NCBI RefSeq assembly: GCF_000196615.1
Contig: NC_014306.1
Location: 4,154,001 to 4,218,000, forward strand
Length of the DNA: 64,000 nucleotides
Reading direction: 5' to 3'
Source: Erwinia billingiae Eb661
GTDB lineage: Bacteria; Pseudomonadota; Gammaproteobacteria; Enterobacterales; Enterobacteriaceae
Shown: positions 5,383-63,497 of the stretch, piece after piece
Layout: each line of letters starts with the position of its first letter
How positions within the stretch are numbered: the stretch's first letter is position 1
Made by a program: the position numbers and the translations under genes
Notes under the pieces: model-generated
Told to the model about the DNA's origin: nothing
Seen by the model: only the letters and a program-made list of their open reading frames with translations
Databases searched by the model: none

Positions 5383-6132
5383 TCAGTCAGTCTTGGTCAG
5401 AAGCAGGACCTGCGCGGTCTGCACGGCATCGGGCGTCACATTGCGGCGTTTGCGTGCAATGCGCTCTTCCAGTTTGTTGGCCAGCCAGGTCAGGCTGAAG
5501 CAGATCAGGTAATAGCTGATGGCCACAATCGCAAACACCTGGAAAGGTTTGGTCAGCAGCTGGTTATTCACCTGGTTGGCCGCATAGGTCAGCTCCGGCA
5601 CGTTAATCACGTAACCCAGCGTGCTGTCTTTGATAATCGACACCAGCTGGCTGACCAGGCTGGGCAGCGCGTTGTACAGCGCCTGCGGCAAAATCACCAC
5701 CCGCAGGGTTTTCAGGTAGCTCATCCCCAGCGCGCGGGAGGCTTCATACTGGCCGCCCGGCAACGCCTGAATGCCGCCACGCACGATTTCAGCGATATAG
5801 GCACTCTCGTAAATCACCAGCGTACACAGCATGGTGGCAAAGCCGCTGATGTTATGGCCAATCAGCAACGGCACGCAGAAGTAGGTCCAGAACACCACCA
5901 TCAACAGCGGGATGCCGCGCAGCACGTACACCCAGCAGGCGGCGGGCCAGCTAAACCAGCGCCACGGAGAAATCCGCGCCAGGCCCAGCAACACGCCAAT
6001 CGGGAAAGCCAGCAGCACCGCCAGTACCGAGATCAATAAGGTGCAGAGAACGCCGCCGAGCGGGCCGTTGGGATACTGGCCCATCAGCAGCAGCATGCCG
6101 TTATCGTGCAGAATGGTGAAGAAATCAGACAT
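5383..6132 (-). CDS. Polar amino-acid ABC transporter permease, HisM/GlnP type
   Basis: Inner-membrane permease of 249 residues with about five hydrophobic segments and the EAA-type loop ([19 protein letters not shown]) of the His/Glu/Gln family. It lies 4 bases downstream of a second, similar permease and 13 bases upstream of the ATPase gene. The pair would form a heterodimer, as in HisQM. The periplasmic binding partner is probably the one encoded at 13293-14132, beyond the regulator and aminotransferase genes, since none is adjacent. Confidence 0.92.
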
Positions 6133-6136
6133 CGGA

Positions 6137-6832
6137 TTACCTCGCGTAAGCCCGCTGGAAGCGACGGGCCAGTAACGCCCCCGCGGCCATCAACAGCAGT
6201 GAGAAGAACAGATAGCCCACGGAGGCCACCAGGTAGGCTTCGAAGGTCCGGAAGGTCTGGTTCTCGATATCACGGGTGACGTAGGTCAGTTCGGCCACGC
6301 CAATCACCATCGCCAGGCTGGTATTTTTAAACAGCAGCACGGTGTGGTTAAGCAGCGACGGCAGCGCATTGCGGATCGCCTGCGGCAGGATCACCGAACG
6401 CATTGAGCGCACGTAACTCATGCCCAGCGCGCGTGAGGCTTCGTTTTGCCCGTCAGGAATGGCGCGCAGGCCGCTGCGAATATCCTCGGAGAAATAGGCC
6501 GCCTGGCACAGGCCCAGCGCGCACATTGAGAACAGGAATTCGGCGTTGAAATCATTGACCCACATCTGCACCGACTCCGGCAGCAGCGTCGGGATGGCGA
6601 AATACCACATCATCAGCTGGATCAGCGTCGGCACGTTGCGGTGATAGGAGACATACGCCGAGACCAGAAAGACCGCCAGGCGTTTATTGGTTAAGCGGAT
6701 CACCACCAGCAGCAACGCCAGGGCCATTGCCAGCAGCCACGACCCCAGCGCCAGCTTGAGGGTGACCAGCGTGCCGTCGACGATCATCTGCCCAAACTGG
6801 CCGGTCAGAACGGCACTGAAATCAAGTGTCAT
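6137..6832 (-). CDS. Polar amino-acid ABC transporter permease, HisQ/GlnP type
   Basis: Second permease of the amino-acid importer, 231 residues, with five or so membrane segments and the loop [19 protein letters not shown]. The string SRALGMSY is shared with the partner permease 4 bases downstream, and both belong to the HisMQ permease family. It follows the short-chain dehydrogenase gene by 26 bases on the same strand. GAGG lies a short distance before the ATG at 6832. Confidence 0.92.
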   Translation of the reverse strand: MTLDFSAVLTGQFGQMIVDGTLVTLKLALGSWLLAMALALLLVVIRLTNKRLAVFLVSAYVSYHRNVPTLIQLMMWYFAIPTLLPESVQMWVNDFNAEFLFSMCALGLCQAAYFSEDIRSGLRAIPDGQNEASRALGMSYVRSMRSVILPQAIRNALPSLLNHTVLLFKNTSLAMVIGVAELTYVTRDIENQTFRTFEAYLVASVGYLFFSLLLMAAGALLARRFQRAYAR

Positions 6833-51721: not shown

Positions 51722-51940
51722 ATGGAAAAGCTAAACACCACCAAAGTTCTTTTTGGAAAAAGAGTTAAACAACTCAGACTGCAGGCAGGCTTGTCGCAAG
51801 AAGCATTCGCACATAAATGCGGGCTGGATCGCACCTATGTGTCTGGAATTGAGCGAGGTTTACGCAACCCGACGCTGGAAGTGATTGCCATTCTGGCCAA
51901 AGGATTGGGAATTGAACTTAAAAATCTGATTGAGTTTTAA
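51722..51940 (+). CDS. XRE-family controller (C) protein
   Basis: A 72-residue helix-turn-helix regulator: FGKRVKQLRLQAGLSQEAFA, then GLDRTYVSGIERGLRNPTLE as the recognition helix and next helix, then AILAKGLGIELKNLIEF. The L-D-R-T-Y-(V/I)-S-G-I-E-R block is that of C proteins from type II restriction-modification systems such as C.Esp1396I. Its operator is in front. No methylase or endonuclease gene is in the vicinity, so it is an orphan here. The gene is followed by an AT-rich 190-base gap, hinting at acquired DNA. Confidence 0.85.
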   Translation: MEKLNTTKVLFGKRVKQLRLQAGLSQEAFAHKCGLDRTYVSGIERGLRNPTLEVIAILAKGLGIELKNLIEF

Positions 51941-52141
51941 TCGCAGAAGCTAAATATTTTTATTTTTTTATACTGAGCTATTTCATCTGGTTGCAAGTAA
52001 GCGCCAAAATAAAACCTTTCTGACACGTTAAAAAAACCTTTTTCAGTTTTTACTTACGAAAATAATTAATTTTTTCGGATTTTACCCGTCACCTTTTTTT
52101 AAAAAAACTGAGCGGCACGCTGGCCGCTCGTTCTGTCAGCA

Positions 52142-52447
52142 CTAAAATCCGTAGCGAATGGCATCCTTACTTTGCTGCATTAATCCGTCTATCTTCAATG
52201 AATACAACTCCACACCTGCCCCGTCTCCCGCCTGTGAACATTCCCGACGTTTCGCGTTGTAGGCTTTCATCAGCTGTGCCTGAGCAAAACCGGGTTTACC
52301 GTAACAGGTCACGCTTTGCTCCCAGCACGCAATCGCGCGGTCGCTGTCCTGCTGTTCCTGGAAACGTTTCCCCAGCTCGTTAAGCGCAGTGGCGCACTCT
52401 TTGGCCGGAAGCCCTTGTTGCATGATGTCGTCTATTGCCTGGTCCAT
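52142..52447 (-). CDS. Small helical protein at the end of the PTS operon
   Basis: A 101-residue protein of unknown function with helical repeats that resemble a single pair of TPR-like helices (CATALNELGKRFQEQQDSDRAIACWEQSV) and five cysteines. GGAGG sits 4 bases before the ATG and immediately after the stop codon of the EIIC gene, so it is made together with the PTS. It may be a regulator or adaptor of the pathway. Nothing about the sequence fixes a function. Confidence 0.7.
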   Translation of the reverse strand: MDQAIDDIMQQGLPAKECATALNELGKRFQEQQDSDRAIACWEQSVTCYGKPGFAQAQLMKAYNAKRRECSQAGDGAGVELYSLKIDGLMQQSKDAIRYGF

Positions 52448-52457
52448 AACGCCTCCG

Positions 52458-53723
52458 TTAATGGAAGAAGTTGAGAATGTGGCCGAAGATCAGCCCGACG
52501 CTGATCACGTCGGAGTCACTGAAGGTGACGTTGGCCATACCGTATTGCCCCAGCAGCGGCAGCAGCAGCGCCGGCAGTAAGGTGATAAACAGCCCGTGGA
52601 AGACGCCACCGATGATCGCCCCGCGACGTCCGCCCACCGCATTAGCAAAGATCCCGGCCGTCCCGCCGGCAAAGAAGTTGGTTAACATGCCCGGCAGGAT
52701 CATCGCCAGACCGACCCACGGGAACAGCAGCATGCCGATCACCGAGCCGATGGTGGTGGAGATAAAGCCGATAATCACCGCGTTTGGCGCATACGGGAAC
52801 AGTACCGGACAGTCGAGAGCCGGAACGGCATTCGGTACGATACGCAGCGCGATACCGCGGAACGCCGGAACAATTTCGGCCAGCAGTAAACGCACCCCGG
52901 ACAGCAGCACATACACCCCAACCACAAACTGAATCGCCTGCAGGAAGGAATAGACCAGATAGTTAACGCCATTGGATGAGGCGGCGACCACTTCCGGGCC
53001 GGCAACGATCGCCGGGATCAGGTAGATCGGGATCATCACCACCATCATCGACAGGTAGGTATCCTGCAGGAAAGAGAGTGCCTGCGGCAGCTCCAGATCC
53101 TCGGTACTTTTGCTGACGTCGCCGGTCACTTTGGCCACGCCAGCCTGCACGATATAGCCGACGGTACAGAAATGGCCGAGCGCGAAATCATCGCCGCCGG
53201 TGATCTTGCGGACAATCGGCTGAGCCAGCGCCGGCATAAACACCGCCATCATTCCGGCAATCACCCCGCCCAACACGATCAGCTCGACGCCACGCAGTCC
53301 ACCCATATAACCAATTACCGAACAGACGGTCGCCATCCACAGCGACGCCTGCCCGGTCAGAAAGATATATTTGTAGCGGGTGAAACGGGCAATGGCGATA
53401 TTGACGATAAAGGCGATCACCATAATCAGTGCGGTCTCACTGCCCAGCGTTTGCTGAGCGATACCGGCAATCGAACCGACGTCGGTAACCACACCGCGCA
53501 TATGGAAGCCTTTCTGGAATATCTCACCCAGGAAGGTTAAGGTGCCGACAATAATATTGGCACCCGCCAGAATGACCAAAAAGCCTAAGAGGGTTTTTAA
53601 GGTGCCAGTAATCACCTGGCCCGGACTTTTCTTCAACGAGATCAGACCGATCATGGCGATCAATGAGATCAGTATTGACGCTTGTCCCAGCACATCATGG
53701 ACAATAAAGTTAAGGAAAGACAT
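52458..53723 (-). CDS. PTS EIIC component, ascorbate (UlaA/SgaT) family
   Basis: Inner-membrane sugar channel of the phosphotransferase system, 421 residues, about eleven hydrophobic segments. Family blocks: LGQASILISLIAMIGLISLKKSPGQVITGTLKTLLGF at the start, TGGDDFALGHFC and the C-terminal GGTAGIFANAVGGRRGA. Members carry ascorbate or related sugar acids/polyols, phosphorylating the sugar as it enters. The gene is followed by the small helical protein and preceded 48 bases upstream by the EIIB gene. With the aldolase nearby the substrate may instead be a ketose or deoxy sugar. Confidence 0.9.
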   Translation of the reverse strand: MSFLNFIVHDVLGQASILISLIAMIGLISLKKSPGQVITGTLKTLLGFLVILAGANIIVGTLTFLGEIFQKGFHMRGVVTDVGSIAGIAQQTLGSETALIMVIAFIVNIAIARFTRYKYIFLTGQASLWMATVCSVIGYMGGLRGVELIVLGGVIAGMMAVFMPALAQPIVRKITGGDDFALGHFCTVGYIVQAGVAKVTGDVSKSTEDLELPQALSFLQDTYLSMMVVMIPIYLIPAIVAGPEVVAASSNGVNYLVYSFLQAIQFVVGVYVLLSGVRLLLAEIVPAFRGIALRIVPNAVPALDCPVLFPYAPNAVIIGFISTTIGSVIGMLLFPWVGLAMILPGMLTNFFAGGTAGIFANAVGGRRGAIIGGVFHGLFITLLPALLLPLLGQYGMANVTFSDSDVISVGLIFGHILNFFH

Positions 53724-53771
53724 GGTAGTCCCCTGTTTCTGTCACAGTAAACGGATAAGTTTAAAAATGGA

Positions 53772-54071
53772 TCAGAGCATGTAGCCTTTTTCTTTTAGTA
53801 TCGGCTCAAGCTTGGTTTTAATTTCGTTCTTATCGACCAGACGCTTCAGATAAATAACGGTCGCGTTAATGGTGTAATGCTGAAACTGTGAACGGAAGTT
53901 CTCACCGGTCATAATAATGTCGGCGCGGGAGGAGGTGGCGCTGGAGATATCGCAATGCGAGAGATCGGCTTCAATGCCCAGATCCTTTAAGGCCGCTTCA
54001 ATACTCATTTCGCACGCAAAGCTGCTGCCCAGCCCTGCGCCACACACTGCAAGAATAGATAACTTTTTCAT
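53772..54071 (-). CDS. PTS EIIB component, ascorbate (UlaB/SgaB) family
   Basis: A 99-residue cytoplasmic phosphocarrier with the phospho-cysteine loop LAVCGAGLGSSFA, Cys10 being the phosphorylated residue. Fold pattern of the lactose/ascorbate-type IIB: alternating strand and helix with DIIMTGENF in the middle. It takes phosphate from EIIA (55087-55530) and gives it to the sugar bound in EIIC. The PFK-like gene lies 10 bases upstream. Confidence 0.92.
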   Translation of the reverse strand: MKKLSILAVCGAGLGSSFACEMSIEAALKDLGIEADLSHCDISSATSSRADIIMTGENFRSQFQHYTINATVIYLKRLVDKNEIKTKLEPILKEKGYML

Positions 54072-54081
54072 CAGGTATTCC

Positions 54082-55074
54082 TTAGTTGATCATCTGTAAG
54101 TTTCTTGCCGCTACCACTAAATGCGGATCGGGTTGTCTTTTACCTGCTGCGATAGCCTGCAGCCTGATACATGTTGTTTGTCCCCGTGCCATGCCAATCA
54201 CCAGCCCGCTTTCACCTTGCTGAAAGAGCTGCAAGGCCTGCTGACCGGAAGCGGAGGCCAGTAACCGGTCGGCTGTCACAGGCGTCGCCGCGCGCTGACA
54301 ATATCCCGGCAGGGTGTAACGCACCGGCACATCGAGCGTCGCTTCAAGCTGCTGCCCTAACGCCACCGCACCGCCCTGGCTTCCTGCCATTACCCTTCCG
54401 CTGCCTGCCACGCCTTCGGCACACACCACGATGCCGTAGCCAAAAGGCGCGTTGAGACAGTGGCGTAAGCGCTGCTGCAACCAGTGCATGTCCGGCGGGA
54501 TCTCCGGGATTAACACCGCATGTGCCGCGCCGGCCAACGCACCGCTGAGCGCCAGATGCCCACAGCCTGCACCGAACGCTTCCAGCAGATAAATCCGCCC
54601 CGGCATGTTGTGCGCCGTACCGTGCAGCTGGTCCAGCGCCTGCGCAATCACTCCCACCGCGCTGCTAAAGCCCAGCGTGTCATCCAGACCGGGGATGTCA
54701 TTGTCTACCGTCATCGGGATCAGCAGGACTGGCTGCCCCTCTTCCTGCAAACACCTTGCCGCCTGCAGCGAACCGCCGCCGCCAAACACCAGCAGCAGAT
54801 CGACGTCAAGTTCCCGTAACCGCCTGCGGATGCTGGCCCTTCCCGCCGGCTGCCAGGCAAGCTGACTGCGGGCGCTGCGTAAAACGTTACGGTTGCTGGC
54901 GACCGCCAGCCTGACCTCGGTTTCATTCAGCATAAAAGGCGCGTGATGAATAATGCCGTCATAGCCACCATGAAACGCCAGCACAGATTCAGCGTGCTGA
55001 ACCAGCGGCAAAATAGCCGAATTAATCCCTACGGCATCTCCGCCGCTGGCAATCAGTGCAATTTTTCGCTTCAT
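54082..55074 (-). CDS. Divergent ATP-phosphofructokinase family sugar kinase
   Basis: A 330-residue PfkA-family protein. Retained relative to E. coli PfkA: the catalytic Asp (D124 of TVDND), Arg160, Glu191 (IPEI), Arg252 and Arg261. Changed: GGDGS to GGGGS (98-102, loss of the Asp that helps hold Mg-ATP), MGR to FGA (167-169, loss of the fructose-6-phosphate Arg) and the His of GHIQRGG to Tyr258. So it may phosphorylate a different sugar phosphate. It sits in the PTS operon between the EIIA and EIIB genes, where it would turn the imported sugar-phosphate into a bisphosphate for the aldolase. Confidence 0.85.
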   Translation of the reverse strand: MKRKIALIASGGDAVGINSAILPLVQHAESVLAFHGGYDGIIHHAPFMLNETEVRLAVASNRNVLRSARSQLAWQPAGRASIRRRLRELDVDLLLVFGGGGSLQAARCLQEEGQPVLLIPMTVDNDIPGLDDTLGFSSAVGVIAQALDQLHGTAHNMPGRIYLLEAFGAGCGHLALSGALAGAAHAVLIPEIPPDMHWLQQRLRHCLNAPFGYGIVVCAEGVAGSGRVMAGSQGGAVALGQQLEATLDVPVRYTLPGYCQRAATPVTADRLLASASGQQALQLFQQGESGLVIGMARGQTTCIRLQAIAAGKRQPDPHLVVAARNLQMIN

Positions 55075-55086
55075 GATCGGGCTCTT

Positions 55087-55530
55087 TTAAAACTGGCTGA
55101 GAATATCCAGTACGGCGTGTTTACTTCGGGCATTCTTTAATTTATCCAGCACGTCATCTTCGCAAAAAAGCCGGGACAGGCTGGCAATCATTTCAATATG
55201 TGAATGACTGTCGATGGCCGCCAGGGCAAATACTACATAAACAGGATCGTTATCAGGGCTATTAAAACTGACGCCTTCGGAAATAATGATTAGCGACAGT
55301 GCTGTTTTAATCACGCCCTCTTCCGGTCTGGCATGGGGCATTGCGATGCCTTCACCTAACACATAATAGGGCCCTATTTCCCGATGCATATCATAGATGG
55401 CGTTCAGGTAGCGCGGCTCCACGGAGCCGTTGTCCACCATCGGTTGCACGGCCAGCTTCACCGCGTGTTGCCAATCATTAACATGGGTGAACAGTGAAAG
55501 ATTACTTTCGTTAATCCAGTCAGTCAGCAT
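55087..55530 (-). CDS. PTS EIIA component, mannitol/ascorbate (UlaC) type
   Basis: A 147-residue cytoplasmic EIIA protein with the active-site His in GEGIAMPHARPEEGV; it passes phosphate from HPr to EIIB. Family blocks ALSLIIISEGVSFNSPDNDPVYVVFALAAIDSHSHIEMIASLSRLF. It is the first gene of the EIIA, PFK-like, EIIB, EIIC, small-protein run. The 230 bases upstream up to the P-loop kinase are AT-rich and probably hold its promoter. Confidence 0.92.
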   Translation of the reverse strand: MLTDWINESNLSLFTHVNDWQHAVKLAVQPMVDNGSVEPRYLNAIYDMHREIGPYYVLGEGIAMPHARPEEGVIKTALSLIIISEGVSFNSPDNDPVYVVFALAAIDSHSHIEMIASLSRLFCEDDVLDKLKNARSKHAVLDILSQF

Positions 55531-55760
55531 AGTGTTCCTTATTTAGAAAATAAGCGTTAATTCAATATACTTTCCAGCCAAGGGTTAAAACGTGATCCAG
55601 TCACCTATTTTAAAATTAAATAAAAAATAATTTAGCCTAAAAAGAGATTGAAAAATAAAGCAATAAGATCACGCTGGTAATTTAATAAAAACCAGTGAAG
55701 TTTCATTTAAAATAAATGATATTGAGATCGTTTCTGCCATTAATTCAGGCGGAAAAGTTA

Positions 55761-56354
55761 TCAGTTATAATTAACTGTGGTTAAAACCTCTCTGGTCCAG
55801 GCAATAATATTTTCATTGTTGATAACCTGACTCTGGTCGGCAATATACACCGGACTTAACTGCATCGGCCCGGCACGTTCGGCCAGTGCAATCAGTTCAG
55901 GAATATATTCGGCGCCGGGATGACCGGGTAAACGATCGCCCAACCGGGCCGCATAACGTTGCGCCGCCAGTTCGCCGGTAAGCTGACACCAGATTTCGGC
56001 CAGGGATTTGACGTTCGCCTGCTGTAAGTAATTCACCAGACTCTCTTTGGGTTGGAAGCCAAACCACGCATCAACAATAAAGGTGCAGCCTTGTGGCGCT
56101 GCGGCAATCACAGACCAAATGGCCTGATAGCTGGCAATGCCCAGCCGACGATTAAGCGGACGATCCAGCTGTTCGAACTGCTGCATAAACGGTTCTTTGA
56201 TGCCGTCCACCGACAACACGGGCCAGCCGGTTGCCTGCGATACTGCCCGCGCGATGCTGCTTTTTCCCGAAGCGGGGATGCCGTTAACCATCACGACGCG
56301 TTTACCGGCGTTGACCGGGGCGGCGTGGCTGGCGGTTGCCCTTCCATCAGACAT
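55761..56354 (-). CDS. P-loop kinase-like protein
   Basis: A 197-residue nucleotide kinase-like protein: Walker A GIPASGKSS near residues 25-33, then VDGIKEPFM and a lid with arginines (AQRYAARLGDR). It resembles chloramphenicol phosphotransferase/zeta-like or AAA-type small kinases that act on sugars or small molecules. The start overlaps the aldolase gene by 8 bases, so they are made together. As second kinase in the locus it may phosphorylate an unphosphorylated sugar or intermediate. Confidence 0.75.
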   Translation of the reverse strand: MSDGRATASHAAPVNAGKRVVMVNGIPASGKSSIARAVSQATGWPVLSVDGIKEPFMQQFEQLDRPLNRRLGIASYQAIWSVIAAAPQGCTFIVDAWFGFQPKESLVNYLQQANVKSLAEIWCQLTGELAAQRYAARLGDRLPGHPGAEYIPELIALAERAGPMQLSPVYIADQSQVINNENIIAWTREVLTTVNYN

Positions 56355-57288
56355 GATTGACCTGCTCCTCGCTTTTCACTTCCGCCGTGGCGGCGGTAAA
56401 ATATTTCCCGATAACCGCCTGAATCTCCCGCAGTCTTGGCACCGCCAGGGTTTCCAGCTTTTCACGGGTCACCGTGCGGTCCAGCGAGATACAGTCTTTC
56501 CATAATGCACGGCCTGCAATCACACCGGAAGCCCCATTGCTCATGGCATCGGCCACCTGTCCGAGGAAGGTTGCGTGGTCAACACCGGCGGAGAGCACGG
56601 CCCACGGCACATCGCCGGAAATTTCAGTGATGGCGGCACAGGCGGCAGGCGATCCCGGATAAGGAATTTTCAGCACTTTCGCACCGCAATCCAGCGACAG
56701 TTTGGTGCCTTCAAAGATAAGCGACGGGACCTTGCTTTTATAGTCAGCATCGCTCTCGCCTTCTAACTGATAGGTAAGGAACTCGACCACCAGCAGCAGA
56801 TCTTCTTTGCTGAAGTCTTCGATACAGTGGCGGAGAATAGCGAGGTTATGGTCGTTGGCCTCCGGACGATCGGCACGCAGGTAGACCATGATTTTGCCGC
56901 CGTTGCCGCCCAGCTCACGCACGCGGCGGGCGTTGATGCCTTCCACCAGACGTGAATTGCGGTAGCCTTCGGCGGTGGTATCCCAGCCTGAGGCATCCAG
57001 CCCAATCAGCAGCGCGGTGTCGCGGGCAATGATGCCGTCATCCACCAAATCGGGGACCGCACAGACCGGATCCACCAGCACGCAGGAGGCCTGGCTTGCC
57101 AGATACTGGGTGATGTCCGCCTTGATGCGACCGAGTTGCTGTTCGGAAATGGCTTTCTGCTGATCCGGGTCGGATGAGAGCAGGCTGCGCATTGCGCCAC
57201 GCTGATCGCAGGCAATGACCAGCATTGCGCCGTTGCTGCCGCAAATCTGTTGATAACCACGCAGTTCTGACGTTGACATATGTGACAT
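56347..57288 (-). CDS. Class I ketose-bisphosphate aldolase, LacD/YihT type
   Basis: Aldolase of 313 residues from the family of tagatose-1,6-bisphosphate aldolase LacD and sulfofructose-phosphate aldolase YihT. The Schiff-base Lys207 is in AKVLKIPYPGS, the family position. Other blocks are MLVIACDQRGAMR, CVLVDPVCAVPD and PWAVLSAGVDHATFLGQVADAMSNGASGVIAGRALW. AGGAG lies 9 bases before the ATG. It should cleave a six-carbon sugar (bis)phosphate to dihydroxyacetone phosphate and a second aldehyde. Divergent from the SorC-type gene. Confidence 0.9.
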   Translation of the reverse strand: MSHMSTSELRGYQQICGSNGAMLVIACDQRGAMRSLLSSDPDQQKAISEQQLGRIKADITQYLASQASCVLVDPVCAVPDLVDDGIIARDTALLIGLDASGWDTTAEGYRNSRLVEGINARRVRELGGNGGKIMVYLRADRPEANDHNLAILRHCIEDFSKEDLLLVVEFLTYQLEGESDADYKSKVPSLIFEGTKLSLDCGAKVLKIPYPGSPAACAAITEISGDVPWAVLSAGVDHATFLGQVADAMSNGASGVIAGRALWKDCISLDRTVTREKLETLAVPRLREIQAVIGKYFTAATAEVKSEEQVNHV

Positions 57289-57547
57289 TATTTTTGTCTC
57301 CTGGACAGTTTTTCAGTTTTAGAACACGGTTACAGCCTCATTTTTCAGTGTGCGACTTCATACCCGATCCCCCTGGAGCATCAGTGCTGATGCGGCGTCC
57401 TGTCAGGGTTTTTGCCGGGTATACGCATTGCAATTTGTGGGGTGTTGCGCAATAATCCTTCAATCGATGAACTGAGTGTAATACATTGCAGAAAGGAATT
57501 TCAAGCTGAAAGAACCTCTTTTACAAGACGCCGCGACAACGCGGGCG

Positions 57548-58456
57548 ATGATGCATATGGTGGCAAAGTTGCACTATCAGTCAGACATGGCTCAGGTGGA
57601 CATTGCTAAAAAACTGGGCGTATCGACCGCCACCATCTCGCGGCTGCTCAACAAAGCCCGCGCGGCGGGGATCGTGCGGATCGAGGTGGTGGAACTGACG
57701 TCGCCTGAAGAGATCACCGCCGATCTTATCCAGCGGCTGGGGCTGAAAAGCGCCGCCGTGGTGGAGCCACCGCCGACCAATATCCTCGGCTCGCTGGCCA
57801 CGCCGCTGGCGGGTTTGCTGCAGCAGGCCGATCTGGCGGCCGGTTCGGTGATCGGCATTGGCTGGGGTCGTGCGGTGCGGGAAGTGACCATGGGCGGCCT
57901 GCCGAAAATTCCTGGCGTGATGACGGTAGCGATGAACGGCGGGATGCAGCAGGCGGCGGCGCATTTTCAGATCAATGAATTTGTCCGTCAGGCGGCGGAA
58001 CAGATGGGCGGCGTGCCGCATTTCCTGCATGCGCCCTACCTGACCTCGCCGATGCTGCGTGAGGCATTTCTGGCTGATGCCGGCGTGCAGCAAATTATTT
58101 CACTGTGGGATAACCTCGACGTGGCGATTGTCGGCGTCGGCTTAACCCATCATCTGCCGGCCCCGTCAGAAACCACCACCGCCACCGCCAACGAGCAGGC
58201 GCTCAGCCAGGCGGCGGGCGACGTGCTGCGGCATTACGTGACCGAAAGCGGTGAGATCCTGCACTGGGAAGGCGAAGAGCGGATGATCGCCGCCTCCACC
58301 GCCCAACTGCGCAATACCACGCTGAGTATTGGCGTGGCGGCCACGCCGGAAAAAGCGGCTGGCATCATTGGCGCGGTGCGCTCCGGGATGATCAACGCGC
58401 TGGTGACCGATGTCACCACCGCCCAGGCAATCCTCGACCGCTTAATGGTGGAGTGA
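57548..58456 (+). CDS. SorC/DeoR-type sugar-responsive regulator
   Basis: Regulator of about 302 residues: helix-turn-helix MAQVDIAKKLGVSTATISRLLNKARAAGIV and a sugar-phosphate-binding domain from about 60 (GSVIGIGWGRAVREVTMGGLP... NALVTDVTTAQAILDRL). It lies divergent from the aldolase/kinase operon and should control it and the PTS genes. The ATG at 57548 has no ribosome site; the CTG at 57506 in frame has AGGA eight bases before it and restores residues normally present in family N-termini, giving 316 residues. Confidence 0.88.
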   Translation: MMHMVAKLHYQSDMAQVDIAKKLGVSTATISRLLNKARAAGIVRIEVVELTSPEEITADLIQRLGLKSAAVVEPPPTNILGSLATPLAGLLQQADLAAGSVIGIGWGRAVREVTMGGLPKIPGVMTVAMNGGMQQAAAHFQINEFVRQAAEQMGGVPHFLHAPYLTSPMLREAFLADAGVQQIISLWDNLDVAIVGVGLTHHLPAPSETTTATANEQALSQAAGDVLRHYVTESGEILHWEGEERMIAASTAQLRNTTLSIGVAATPEKAAGIIGAVRSGMINALVTDVTTAQAILDRLMVE

Positions 58457-58457
58457 T

Positions 58458-58494
58458 AATAATTCCCCCTGATTTATTCGGGGGCGTTATTTTT
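58458..58494 (+). terminator. Intrinsic terminator of the SorC-type gene
   Basis: Stem AATAA..CCCCC with GGGGG..TTATT, 10-base loop, ending TTATTTTT, directly after the stop codon. Confidence 0.75.
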
Positions 58495-59338: not shown

Positions 59339-60640
59339 TTATTGCTGCGGTTGTTGCTGCTTGTCCGGATCCTTGCGCTCCACGGTCGACACCGTTTTAC
59401 GCAACGCTTTCACCTGCTCGGGTTTCACCGCCGGCGCATTATTCCCCCAACTGCTGCGAACAAAGGTCGACAGATCCGCCACCTGGCGATCGTCCAGACG
59501 CCAGCCGAAGTCCGGCATGGTCAATCCGGTCACCGCTTTATGCGTTACCGCCGCTTTGCCCCCGCGCAGGACAATGCTTATCAGTGACGACGGATCGTCG
59601 CTTAAGATCGCCGGGTTGTGTGCCAGCGCCGGGAAGGTTTTACTGTAACCTTTACCGTCGGTGCGGTGACAGGCGGCGCAGTTATCCATATACACCTGCG
59701 CTCCCGGTTTGCTCATATCCCCTGTTACCAGCGCTGCCTGGGTACGGCTGTCGGGTTCGGGTGCCACGGCTTTTGGATTCGACGATTTCAGGCTTTTCAG
59801 GTACACCGCCATCGCATTCACATCCCGATCGCTCAGATGCTGCGTGCTGTGCTCAATCACGTCGGTCATCGATCCGAACGCGGCGCTGTTTGCCGTCCAG
59901 CCGGTTTGCAGGAAGCTGACGATATCCTGCTGCGACCAGCTGCCAATGCCGGCGTGCACGTTGCCGGTCAGGTCCGGCGCGTGCCAGCCTTCCAGCGTGC
60001 CGCCGGTCAGGTAAGCCGAATCCTTCTGGTTCAACGCTTTTTCCTGGAAACCGATGCCGCGCGGCGTATGGCAGGTGCCGCAGTGCTCCAGCCCCTGAAC
60101 CAGATAAGCGCCGCGGTTCCATTCCGCACTCTGACTGCTGTCCGGCTGATATCGACTGTCGTCATGGAACGCCCAGTTCCACACCGTTAGCGGCCAGCGC
60201 ATGCTTAACGGCCAGGGAATATCGCTGTCGCGGTCGGCCTGATGCACGGCCGGCACTTCGTTCATAAAGTAGTCGTACAGCGCGTGCATATCCTCATCAG
60301 TGATCTTCGCGAATGCGGTGTAAGGCATCGCCGGATACAACCGGTGTCCGTCTTTCGCCACGCCGCCACGCACCGCGTTGGCAAAGTCGTCATAACTGTA
60401 ATCGCCGATGCCGGTTTGCTTATCCGGGGTGATGTTGGTGGAATAAATTGCACCTACCGGGGTGACCATCCTCAGCCCACCGGCAAAATTCGCGCCGCCC
60501 GCCGAGGTGTGGCACGCCGCGCAGTCACCGGCCTGTGCCAGATAATGCCCTTTGCTCACCGGCGCGTCTGTCGCCGATGCTGACGCGGAAGCCAGACCGG
60601 CAAACAGCAAAGACGCTAACCATCCAGAATGCTTGATCAT
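59339..60640 (-). CDS. Gluconate 2-dehydrogenase cytochrome c subunit
   Basis: Membrane-attached tri-haem cytochrome c of 433 residues. Three haem motifs are seen: CAACHTSAGG near 40, CGTCHTPRG near 190 and CAACHRTDG near 315. A signal peptide ends SASASA. The layout matches the cytochrome subunit of membrane-bound gluconate or sorbitol dehydrogenases. It carries electrons from the FAD subunit to ubiquinone. It is the last gene of the three-gene operon, 15 bases after the FAD subunit gene. Confidence 0.92.
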   Translation of the reverse strand: MIKHSGWLASLLFAGLASASASATDAPVSKGHYLAQAGDCAACHTSAGGANFAGGLRMVTPVGAIYSTNITPDKQTGIGDYSYDDFANAVRGGVAKDGHRLYPAMPYTAFAKITDEDMHALYDYFMNEVPAVHQADRDSDIPWPLSMRWPLTVWNWAFHDDSRYQPDSSQSAEWNRGAYLVQGLEHCGTCHTPRGIGFQEKALNQKDSAYLTGGTLEGWHAPDLTGNVHAGIGSWSQQDIVSFLQTGWTANSAAFGSMTDVIEHSTQHLSDRDVNAMAVYLKSLKSSNPKAVAPEPDSRTQAALVTGDMSKPGAQVYMDNCAACHRTDGKGYSKTFPALAHNPAILSDDPSSLISIVLRGGKAAVTHKAVTGLTMPDFGWRLDDRQVADLSTFVRSSWGNNAPAVKPEQVKALRKTVSTVERKDPDKQQQPQQ

Positions 60641-60655
60641 CTTTTTTCTTCCCTG

Positions 60656-62434
60656 TTAAGCCTGAACCAGCGGTCCGGGATTGGCCAGATACTGCGTACG
60701 AATGGCATTGGCCGCAAACAGCGCGGTTGCCCCCACGATCCCGGTCGGGTTATAGGCCAGGTTCTGCGGGAAGCAGCAGGCGCCCAGCACAAACACGTTC
60801 GGCACATCCCAGCTTTGCAGGTACTTATTCACCACGCTGTTTCTCGGGTTATCGCCCATGATCGCGCCACCGGTGGTGTGCGTGGACTGGTACGGACGCA
60901 CGTCGTAATGTGCGTTCATGCCCATAAAACCGACCTCGTAATGATCGGGTGCCATCGCCTTAACGATGCCTTCGGCTTTGTCCTTGATAAAGTTGGTCAT
61001 CTTCAGTTCGTTCTGTTGCCAGTCGAAGGTCATCCGCAGCAGCGGCTGGCCATGAACATCGCGATAGGTCGGGTCAAGGTCGAGATAACACTGCTTGTAC
61101 GGCATCACCGAACCGGACGATCCGACGCCCATCGCGTGCAGATAGTTATCCTTAATCGACTGCTTCCAGCCCGATCCCCAACGCGGCGCGTTTTTCGGCG
61201 TGCTCATTTGCTGAATAGGACGGCCGCCGGTGGTGGTGGCCGAGATGGTCGCGCCGCCAATGAATCCCAAGCTGCTGTGGTCGAAATTCTCGGCGTTGAA
61301 GTCGTCCATAAACACGCTGGTTGCGCCGGTTGCGGCAAACGGATTGAAGATTTTTTCTTTGTTGTAGAACAGCTTGATGCCGCCGTTCATCTGGTAGGCG
61401 TAGTTCTTGCCGACCACCCCTTCGCCGGTGATCGGGTCGTAAGGCTTGCCGATTTTCGACAGCAGCAGCAGACGCACGTTATTCAGCTGGAAAGTGCTCA
61501 GCACCACAATCGATGCAGGCTGCTCCACTTCCTGGCCCTGCGCATCGATATAGGTCACGCCGGTGGCTTTTTTGCCGCTGAAGTCGGTGTTCACCCGGAT
61601 CACCTGCGCCTGAGTGCGCAGCTCAAAGTTCTTGTGCTGATAGAGCGCCGGCAGCACGGTGGTTTGTGGCGAGGCTTTGGAGTAGTTAAAGCAGCCGAAA
61701 CGTTCACAGAAACCGCAGTAATTACAGACGCCCAGCTGCACGCCGTACGGGTTGGTATAGGATTCAGTGCAGATAGCGGCAGGCAGCGTAAACGGGTGAT
61801 AGCCCAGTCCCTCCGCGGCCTGGGAAAACAGCTGGCCGCCGAACTGACGCTTTTGCGCTTTGGTCGGATACGGATTCTGACGCGGCGCTTCAAAAGGATT
61901 GCCGGTTTCCTGCTTCTGGCCGTTGAGGTTGCCCGCATCGCCAGACGCGCCGCAAATCTTCTCAAACTTGTCGAAATAGGGCTCCATTTCCGCGTAGGTA
62001 AACGGGTAATCCTGCACCGTCATATCCTGCGGAATAAACGAGGCGCCGTAACGTTCAATCACCGTGCTGCGCATTTTCAGGTCGGCTTCCAGCGGACGCC
62101 ATAACATTCCGTTCCAGTGCACGCCTGCCCCGCCGACGCCATCGCCCGGCAGGAAAGAACCGAAGCGGCGATACGGCATGGCGGTATCCGCCGTGGCATG
62201 ACGCACCGTCACCGTTTCGCGCGCGGCATTCTGGAACAGCTTCAGGCGAATGCCGTAGGTCAGCTCATCGGTATTGCGCGGGTAAGCAAAATCAGGGTAG
62301 GTATCGCGTTGTTCGCCACGTTCAAGGGCGAGAATATTCAGCCCGCTGTTGGCCAGTTCCATCGCCATCAGGGATCCGGTCCAGCCGAAGCCGACGATCA
62401 CCATATCCACGGGATCTTTTTTGATTGCTGCCAT
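60656..62434 (-). CDS. Gluconate 2-dehydrogenase FAD (GMC) subunit
   Basis: Catalytic subunit of 592 residues, GMC oxidoreductase type. The FAD-binding loop is VIVGFGWTGSLMAMELANSG (14-33). A cysteine cluster GVCNYCGFCERFGC (about 233-246) corresponds to the Fe-S/disulfide region of FAD glucose dehydrogenases. The C-terminal part has HTTGGAIMGDNPRNSVVNKYLQSWDVPNVFVLGAC, with the catalytic His of the family. Oxidises gluconate to 2-ketogluconate at the periplasmic face. It has no export signal of its own and is expected to ride on the Tat-exported small subunit. Confidence 0.93.
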   Translation of the reverse strand: MAAIKKDPVDMVIVGFGWTGSLMAMELANSGLNILALERGEQRDTYPDFAYPRNTDELTYGIRLKLFQNAARETVTVRHATADTAMPYRRFGSFLPGDGVGGAGVHWNGMLWRPLEADLKMRSTVIERYGASFIPQDMTVQDYPFTYAEMEPYFDKFEKICGASGDAGNLNGQKQETGNPFEAPRQNPYPTKAQKRQFGGQLFSQAAEGLGYHPFTLPAAICTESYTNPYGVQLGVCNYCGFCERFGCFNYSKASPQTTVLPALYQHKNFELRTQAQVIRVNTDFSGKKATGVTYIDAQGQEVEQPASIVVLSTFQLNNVRLLLLSKIGKPYDPITGEGVVGKNYAYQMNGGIKLFYNKEKIFNPFAATGATSVFMDDFNAENFDHSSLGFIGGATISATTTGGRPIQQMSTPKNAPRWGSGWKQSIKDNYLHAMGVGSSGSVMPYKQCYLDLDPTYRDVHGQPLLRMTFDWQQNELKMTNFIKDKAEGIVKAMAPDHYEVGFMGMNAHYDVRPYQSTHTTGGAIMGDNPRNSVVNKYLQSWDVPNVFVLGACCFPQNLAYNPTGIVGATALFAANAIRTQYLANPGPLVQA

Positions 62435-62437
62435 GTG

Positions 62438-63166
62438 TTAAACGCTCCGTTTGCCTGAAATACTCACCGGTCCCAGCGGGTAAGGCTGGTTGGGACGATC
62501 CATTTGATCCTGGTAATCGGCGCGCGCACCGGGGAAACCAATCATTTTCCAGGAGGCCAGCGTTTGATTGCCGCCGTGCATCGGATCGGCAAGATAACCT
62601 TCCTTGGTGTTTTCCAGCAGTTGCTCAAAGAACAGCTTGCCCGGCACGTTCTCAAAGGTCAGCTTGCCGCCGTCCAAATCGTGCAGCACCGCTTCCTGCT
62701 GCAGGTTATCGAGGTCGGCAAACGCCTTTTGAAACTGCTGCTGACAGTGCTGATTAATGGCCTTGATCCCCTGGCGATAGGTTTCGCGCGGGACCAGGCT
62801 GGACTGGTAACCGAGTTCTGGCACAGCGTTGGCAAACGGCGGATGCATGTACCACAGGTGACCGTGACCGTAAGGCAGTTCCATCTGTTTATCGATATAG
62901 ACGGGAACCCCTTCGCTGACGGCACCGGGGCCGTTGCTGTCGGTCGGGATAAGGCGATCGCAGGCGGCCAGAATAAAGCGCCATTCATCGTTGTTGAAAT
63001 AGTTGGGAACGTAATGGGCGGAGACGCCCTCAGATTTGGCTTCAGCGGCGGGCGCGGCGAGGGCAACGACACTGCTTCCTCCGGCCGCTGCCAGTGGGAT
63101 CAGCGACAGGGTTCTCTGCAGGAAACGCCTTCGGGAAGGCACCTGCGCTTCTGTTTTTTTTTCCAT
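62438..63166 (-). CDS. Gluconate 2-dehydrogenase small (gamma) subunit with Tat signal
   Basis: A 242-residue small subunit (GluDH gamma family). The ATG at 63166 gives MEKKTEAQVPSRRRFLQRTLSLIPLAAAGG, with a twin-arginine motif S-R-R-R-F-L-Q; earlier in-frame codons give no such signal. The mature domain reads YVPNYFNNDEWRFILAACDRLIPTDSNGPGA, the family pattern. The folded small-large subunit pair is probably co-exported by Tat. The stop is 4 bases before the FAD subunit ATG, forming an operon of three. Confidence 0.92.
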   Translation of the reverse strand: MEKKTEAQVPSRRRFLQRTLSLIPLAAAGGSSVVALAAPAAEAKSEGVSAHYVPNYFNNDEWRFILAACDRLIPTDSNGPGAVSEGVPVYIDKQMELPYGHGHLWYMHPPFANAVPELGYQSSLVPRETYRQGIKAINQHCQQQFQKAFADLDNLQQEAVLHDLDGGKLTFENVPGKLFFEQLLENTKEGYLADPMHGGNQTLASWKMIGFPGARADYQDQMDRPNQPYPLGPVSISGKRSV

Positions 63167-63497
63167 GACGACATTTCCAATGCAAGCGCGCCGGGGTGCT
63201 CCCCGACACAATAGTTACTTGTGTAATAGTTTTAGTGCTAATTGTTTAGCGTTTATAAAATAGCCGTTAAAGATATTGTGTAAAAGTGAACGGGAAGTTA
63301 AATATGTTAATAAGTGTTTCTGGTATGGTAAATTTAAGACCATCTGAAAGCTGAATAACCGTGTCAACAAAATGAAAAATAAGGATATTTACAAAAAGTG
63401 CGGTTTATGCGTTTAGAGCATAACAGTGGCACTGAGTTTGGCTTAAGTTCAGTGCCTGTTTAGCAGAATGGCAGGTGTGGAGGAAATATCGCGGGGC
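63167..63497. other. AT-rich intergenic region with a hairpin
   Basis: It separates the dehydrogenase operon from the LysR gene. It should carry the operon's promoter. An 8-bp hairpin (GGCACTGA with TCAGTGCC, 63428-63456) lies about 40 bases past the LysR stop and could end that gene, but no T-run follows it on the minus strand. No small gene was found. Confidence 0.5.

Follow-up and report, generated by a model that had tools for sequence, protein, structure and literature searches.

Which sugar would be taken up and broken down by the genes at positions 52142..58456 of a 64,000-nucleotide stretch of the Erwinia billingiae Eb661 genome (contig NC_014306.1, positions 4,154,001 to 4,218,000; the whole stretch is called the window below), and by which reactions? 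The locus combines a phosphotransferase system (PTS) of the Ula type with a P-loop kinase, a phosphofructokinase (PFK)-like protein, a LacD-like aldolase and a SorC-type regulator. The reading we favour, with some reserve and from sequence comparison, is a self-contained ketose-catabolic operon with PTS uptake, a P-loop C1 kinase and a LacD-like aldolase, acting on a substrate of the mannoheptulose type. From the gene content we infer the following route. The PTS (EIIA, EIIB and EIIC) would import the free ketose and phosphorylate its terminal hydroxyl, the P-loop kinase would phosphorylate C1 of the ketose phosphate, and the aldolase would use a Schiff-base lysine to cleave the resulting 1,omega-bisphosphate into glycerone phosphate and an aldose phosphate, with the SorC regulator governing the divergent promoters. 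In a rhizobial counterpart the first step would fall to an ATP-binding cassette (ABC) importer together with a ROK kinase, itself fused to the same P-loop kinase. By comparison, the gene set is best described as a variant, driven by a PTS, of a kinase-kinase-aldolase route already predicted for a ketose. The features of the locus are as follows.

57506..58456, plus strand: SorC-type regulator (Sugar-bind, PF04198); CTG start at 57506-57508 proposed against ATG at 57548
57289..57505, no strand: regulator-aldolase intergenic control region, with blocks kept between Erwinia-type and Rhizobium-type loci (alignment)
56347..57288, minus strand: LacD/YihT-like class I aldolase (DeoC/LacD, PF01791)
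55761..56354, minus strand: P-loop kinase (AAA_33/CPT), proposed to phosphorylate C1 of the ketose phosphate
55087..55530, minus strand: PTS EIIA with PHARPE histidine motif (PTS_EIIA_2, PF00359)
54082..55074, minus strand: PFK-like protein (PF00365), apparently accessory
53772..54071, minus strand: PTS EIIB with VCGAGLGSS cysteine (PTS_IIB, PF02302)
52458..53723, minus strand: PTS EIIC, Ula/GAT superfamily (EIIC-GAT; NCBIfam PRK12997.1-3)
52142..52447, minus strand: small TPR-like protein of 101 amino acids that travels with the PTS (HHalign to the type D protein, see below)
52110..52129, minus strand: terminator-like hairpin 3' of the small protein (hairpin scan)
58466..58484, plus strand: terminator-like hairpin 3' of the regulator (hairpin scan)

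Gene order and its recurrence in other genomes

An earlier annotation made by a model from the letters alone (the sequence-only reading) gave coordinates for eight open reading frames (ORFs), and all eight were found there. It described two divergent units, one of them the aldolase-kinase pair; that pair in fact shares the minus strand with the PTS genes in a compact operon of seven genes, and the divergent regulator is the sole gene of the locus on the plus strand. The aldolase and kinase ORFs overlap by 8 bases, and 230 bases separate the kinase from EIIA. The hairpin scan gave 7 matches against a shuffle mean of 8.7, so the two terminator-like hairpins count by position alone.

Genome contigs scanned with an alignment of the kinase gave 330 coding relatives, and layouts were drawn for the best 80 of the 330. 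These 80 named loci show three arrangements, and a fourth was seen in other genomes. Type A comprises 27 complete and 3 truncated loci from Erwinia, Brenneria, Rahnella, Rouxiella, Serratia, Hafnia, Sodalis and others, in the order regulator, aldolase, kinase, EIIA, PFK (not always present), EIIB, EIIC, small protein. The 13 type B loci, from Citrobacter, Buttiauxella, Cedecea, Enterobacter and Serratia, run PFK, EIIB, EIIC, class II aldolase, small protein, EIIA, kinase, with DeoR-like neighbours that are weak matches (27-28%). The 37 type C loci, from Rhizobium, Mesorhizobium and relatives, run regulator, aldolase, ROK-kinase fusion, ABC importer. Plasmid records added five further type C loci (L013, which equals L052, L014, L016, L018 and L019), a Klebsiella locus in B order and a Sodalis locus in B order with a class I aldolase.

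In types A to C, a P-loop kinase and an aldolase of the bisphosphate type are clustered with phosphorylating uptake (a Ula-type PTS, or an ABC importer with a ROK kinase). The gene set recurs in conserved order across genera, beyond chance; strand assignment aside, the observation made in the sequence-only reading holds. Type A loci hold the PTS instead of the importer and ROK kinase: importer genes occur in 0 of the 27, and their layouts contain no ROK match. Among the first 70 gene clusters listed, counting families present in at least 4 loci, any one family beyond the operon's own occurs in at most 7 of the 27, which gives the pathway a self-contained look. A HAD-type phosphatase gene lies near the pathway in 23 of the 37 type C loci and in L015, L016 (12220-13725) and L018 (4232-5671), accompanied by a PdxJ-like gene in L016 and L018.

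Two tests were independent of the kinase as anchor: a survey of 295 genomes of the order for kinase and EIIC, and the loci of the fourth type. The survey found the kinase in 12 genomes (E 1e-30 or better) and an EIIC of at least 67% identity in the same 12, of which 4 have the class I aldolase. Five of the 12 besides the window's own were opened, and they hold two type A loci without PFK, one locus in B order with a class I aldolase and two type B loci. An EIIC at 61-63% identity occurs in 9 more genomes of one family (2.2-2.9 Mb), where the kinase survey did not find the kinase. Three of these nine were opened (L101, L102 and L103) and make up type D. Here EIIB, EIIC and a TPR-like small protein occur with a PRD/EIIA-type regulator; the aldolase is of class II, the AAA_33 kinase is a different one, and PFK is absent from all three. 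The Ula-type PTS thus has a P-loop kinase and an aldolase of the bisphosphate type beside it even when these two have been replaced by others. Further afield, Streptomyces plasmids carry a kinase relative at 28% identity, and a Cryobacterium plasmid (L020) carries one at 28% with no such cluster around it. Positions 54900-58400 had no match in 20,395 E. coli records (distant-mode blastn).

The aldolase has the lysine and acidic partner of the class I DeoC/LacD superfamily: its K207 and E169 align with the K and E of YihT and are present in 74 of 74 sequences, the window's included. We take K207 to be the Schiff-base lysine and E169 its acidic partner. The nearest PDB matches are YihT (the best) and LacD, and the scores lie below the curated LacD cut-offs (lacD, 62 against 432.2 bits; PRK12858, 154.9 against 184). 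At about 68-76% identity, the aldolases of the type C loci appear to be its orthologues. In the 13 type B loci it is swapped for a class II aldolase, the trait that defines the type, and the Klebsiella class II aldolase passes the ketose-bisphosphate model TIGR00167 (220.6 against 215.6 bits).

Candidate substrates

The pointer to mannoheptulose comes from the type C loci. All 37 carry a binding-protein gene, and the L014 copy matches PDB entry 5dkv with 566 bits over 303 residues. We take 5dkv to be the Avi_5339 chain; its deposition title presumably names D-tagatose, which would count against mannoheptulose and for D-tagatose. Avi_5339 was reported to bind mannoheptulose in an unpublished observation quoted in PMC5507952, and the same paper predicted, in 2017, a kinase-kinase-aldolase mannoheptulose route in one Rhodobacteraceae genome (bin08). 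A mannoheptulose phosphate is not an intermediate of the pentose-phosphate pathway, and this would account for a bisphosphate aldolase being needed. The ligand evidence has an unpublished basis, the published route is itself a prediction, and both concern the ABC form rather than the one with a PTS.

The main rival substrate is D-tagatose, which would pass through the same chemistry by way of D-tagatose 1,6-bisphosphate to two triose phosphates, and which we judge unlikely, if well worth keeping in view. It would suit an aldolase whose nearest matches are YihT and the LacD tagatose-bisphosphate aldolases, and PMC5507952 notes that mannoheptulose resembles D-tagatose. Against it stands Brenneria izbisi KBI 423 (L029), in which the seven operon genes are open; PMC9730526 records this type strain as D-tagatose- and L-sorbose-negative on API 50CH. 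The phenotype speaks weakly against D-tagatose, as it concerns one strain and the operon could be silent.

Other reports were set aside. Two Erwinia species are tagatose-negative (PMC12722478) and one of three new Dryocola species is tagatose-positive (PMC12671600); neither report was used, as the operon content of the strains was not established. The psicose locus of Klebsiella pneumoniae (PMC6020474) has different genes (a permease, a ribokinase-type kinase and a 3-epimerase), and the use of tagatose through the fructose PTS after laboratory evolution (PMC10101011) is another system. No pointer to a sulfo-sugar turned up, and no direct test of one was made.

The second kinase of the proposed route

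The locus encodes two proteins that could add the second phosphate. The P-loop kinase matches the AAA_33/CPT family of Pfam, and its closest solved structure is 2rhm, a 'putative kinase'. The motifs GxPASGKS and DAWFGF are invariant across 10 sequences. In all 42 type C loci (41 distinct) the ROK kinase and the P-loop kinase are fused in frame, and the fused kinase, which shares the invariant motifs and is about 49-61% identical to the operon's, appears to be its orthologue.

The PFK-like gene is missing from 22 of the 27 complete type A loci, where the gap between EIIA and EIIB is 41-179 bases, and from the examined stretch of all 37 type C loci. On a tree of five other proteins its presence is scattered and its place in the gene order constant, so repeated loss is likely. 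A close copy (67-100%) occurs in 3 of 36 genomes of its own genus. Its dN (nonsynonymous divergence) is the highest among the operon genes in six of six comparisons. In comparisons with Erwinia typographi (L021) and Pantoea sp. BAV 3049 (L022), dN/dS is 0.25 and 0.26 for the PFK-like gene, while EIIC has 0.02 and the aldolase 0.07, rough values since dS (synonymous divergence) is near 1; on these figures the PFK-like gene is under constraint, though the least among the operon genes. Split PFK genes were seen in Klebsiella (L017, 3712-4685) and Enterobacter (L070, about 5600-6600), perhaps through assembly error or decay.

The PFK-like protein passes the Pfam PFK model and falls short of both PfkA models (PRK03202, 223.2 against 253 bits; PFKA_ATP, 174.3 against 371.35), and it lacks the GGDG motif. 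Residues were tabulated for 19 copies, leaving out the split L070 copy, with seven PfkA proteins as reference; residue numbers and roles follow E. coli PfkA. The equivalents of D127, D129, R162, R243 and R252 are kept in all 19 copies, and those of M169, R171 and H249 are altered in all 19. The window's copy has GGGG for GGDG, a tyrosine for H249 and an alanine for R171, and the GGDG aspartate is replaced by glycine in six of six type A copies.

We take the P-loop kinase as the probable second kinase, because the PFK-like protein is absent from most type A loci, is the fastest evolving and lacks the GGDG aspartate in the type A copies. The PFK-like protein looks like an accessory, an optional extra rather than the core kinase; the type B PFK may well be a working kinase. 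The sequence-only reading had made the PFK-like protein the needed second kinase and had given the P-loop kinase no step. Its outline of uptake with phosphorylation, a second phosphorylation and aldol cleavage, probably of a ketose, holds up by comparison; its choice of kinase does not, since the P-loop kinase is the constant kinase of the set.

A scheme in which the PFK-like protein makes the bisphosphate, and the P-loop kinase acts on the aldehyde that aldol cleavage sets free or has some other task, seems improbable to us. It would account for type B, where the two kinases are found side by side, and for the D127, R162, R243 and R252 equivalents being kept; the absence of PFK from most type A loci and from the examined stretches of types C and D, together with the missing aspartate in type A, argues against it. 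A housekeeping PfkA elsewhere in the Erwinia genome could in principle serve in such a scheme.

Several further points weigh against a mannoheptulose route built on the P-loop kinase. The 80 loci were retrieved through this kinase, and its presence in them is therefore by construction. All 13 type B loci keep PFK together with the P-loop kinase, which may act otherwise there, and the GGDG aspartate is kept in 12 of 12 tabulated type B copies and in Sodalis L015. The type D kinase gives an HHalign probability of 15.8 with the operon kinase and is a distant relative at best. In L018 (A. rubi) the ROK-kinase fusion is present but the ABC importer is of another kind. Finally, EIIC exceeds the cut-off of the ascorbate-named model PRK09410.1-1 (491.1 against 380 bits).

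Transporter, control region and known systems

The PTS is complete with its phosphorylation motifs: PH[AS]RPE is found in 28 of 28 EIIA sequences, the window's included, and VCG[AC]GLGSS in 27 of 27 type A EIIB relatives. EIIC scores higher on the unspecific model PRK12997.1-3 (743.8 bits, cut-off 657) than on PRK09410.1-1, and falls below PRK12996.1 (426.2 against 890) and PRK09548.1 (287.1 against 687). An acid such as ascorbate, after which the PTS family is named, is a very improbable substrate: beside the EIIC match given above, the best model of EIIA is an ascorbate one, but EIIA (127.7 against 187 bits) and EIIB (27.8 against 138) stay under the ascorbate cut-offs, EIIC prefers the unspecific model, and the enzymes next to it comprise two kinases and an aldolase of the ketose-bisphosphate type. 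A second Ula-type EIIC, 48% identical, lies elsewhere in the Erwinia genome of 5.37 Mb and 3 contigs (L109, 6686-9010; G000:C3, about 4767685-4770009), with EIIB and EIIA look-alikes adjoining it by eye.

The small protein of 101 amino acids matches no Pfam or NCBIfam family. Its type A and type B forms align with the type D counterpart at HHalign probabilities of 92.7% and 87.8%, and poorly with each other (17.8%); the type D protein comes slightly under the TPR_8 cut-off (23.6 against 25.7 bits). This small TPR-like family accompanies the PTS in types A, B and D (window 52142-52447; L015, L017, L101). It is conceivable, though we would stop short of calling it probable, that the P-loop kinase phosphorylates ketose phosphates at C1 and belongs to neither the PfkA nor the PfkB family, that the adjacent Ula-type PTS serves a heptulose and that the small protein is an unrecognised partner of this PTS.

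The control region bears on where the regulator begins. In all 75 regulator-aldolase intergenics an in-frame start lies 7-8 nucleotides past GAAAGGAA (CTG in 72, GTG in 2, ATG in 1); three are duplicates (L013 of L052, L104 of L054, L105 of L075), which leaves 72 distinct (CTG 70, GTG 1, ATG 1). The regulator likely starts at CTG 57506 behind the GAAAGGAA ribosome-binding site, not at ATG 57548, because only start codons occur at that place in two classes of bacteria (Erwinia-type and Rhizobium-type loci). The intergenic alignment used 18 chosen of the 75. The 8-mers shared among the intergenics mostly belong to the regulator's ribosome-binding site, and no defined operator was found among them.

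Judged by eye, the neighbours of the locus include a 72-codon ORF with an Xre-type DNA-binding look (51722-51940) and three genes resembling membrane-bound gluconate 2-dehydrogenase (59339-63211). L021 holds three look-alikes of the latter, whose families each occur in 5 of the 27 type A loci.

Among known systems, the closest is the bin08 route, which shares two phosphorylations, a COG3684 (LacD-type) aldolase and a P-loop kinase as one of two kinases. It differs in having an ABC importer and a ROK kinase where the operon has a PTS, and names no PFK-like or small TPR-like protein. The bin08 kinase is called COG0529 in PMC5507952 and the operon kinase is AAA_33/CPT; the sequence comparison was made with rhizobial relatives, not with bin08. 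The sequence-only reading did not recognise the gene set as a described pathway. This stands for the PTS form, which was not found in a literature search covering few subscription journals, and fails for the ABC/ROK form, already predicted for mannoheptulose. Of the papers that this search brought up, PMC5507952 alone has a bearing on the pathway.

The tagatose 6-phosphate pathway (LacC, LacD) likewise phosphorylates twice and then cleaves a ketose bisphosphate with an aldolase of the LacD family, but LacC is a PfkB-type kinase where the operon has a P-loop kinase, and the operon aldolase is far under the lacD cut-off. The sulfo-Embden-Meyerhof-Parnas pathway (YihV, YihT) supplies the best PDB match of the aldolase; the operon differs in its PTS uptake and P-loop kinase, and its cluster has no other recurrent enzyme gene. 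Ascorbate Ula systems share the EIIA/EIIB/EIIC superfamily and one EIIC model, and differ in the EIIA and EIIB scores and in the adjoining enzymes.

The comparison links the alphaproteobacterial prediction of 2017 with a PTS-driven form in many Enterobacterales, and points out which kinase to assay and which substrate to try first. If true, the proposed route would bring a new family of kinases that act on ketose phosphates, add a PTS that takes up a seven-carbon sugar, and give the plant sugar mannoheptulose a fate in plant-associated bacteria.

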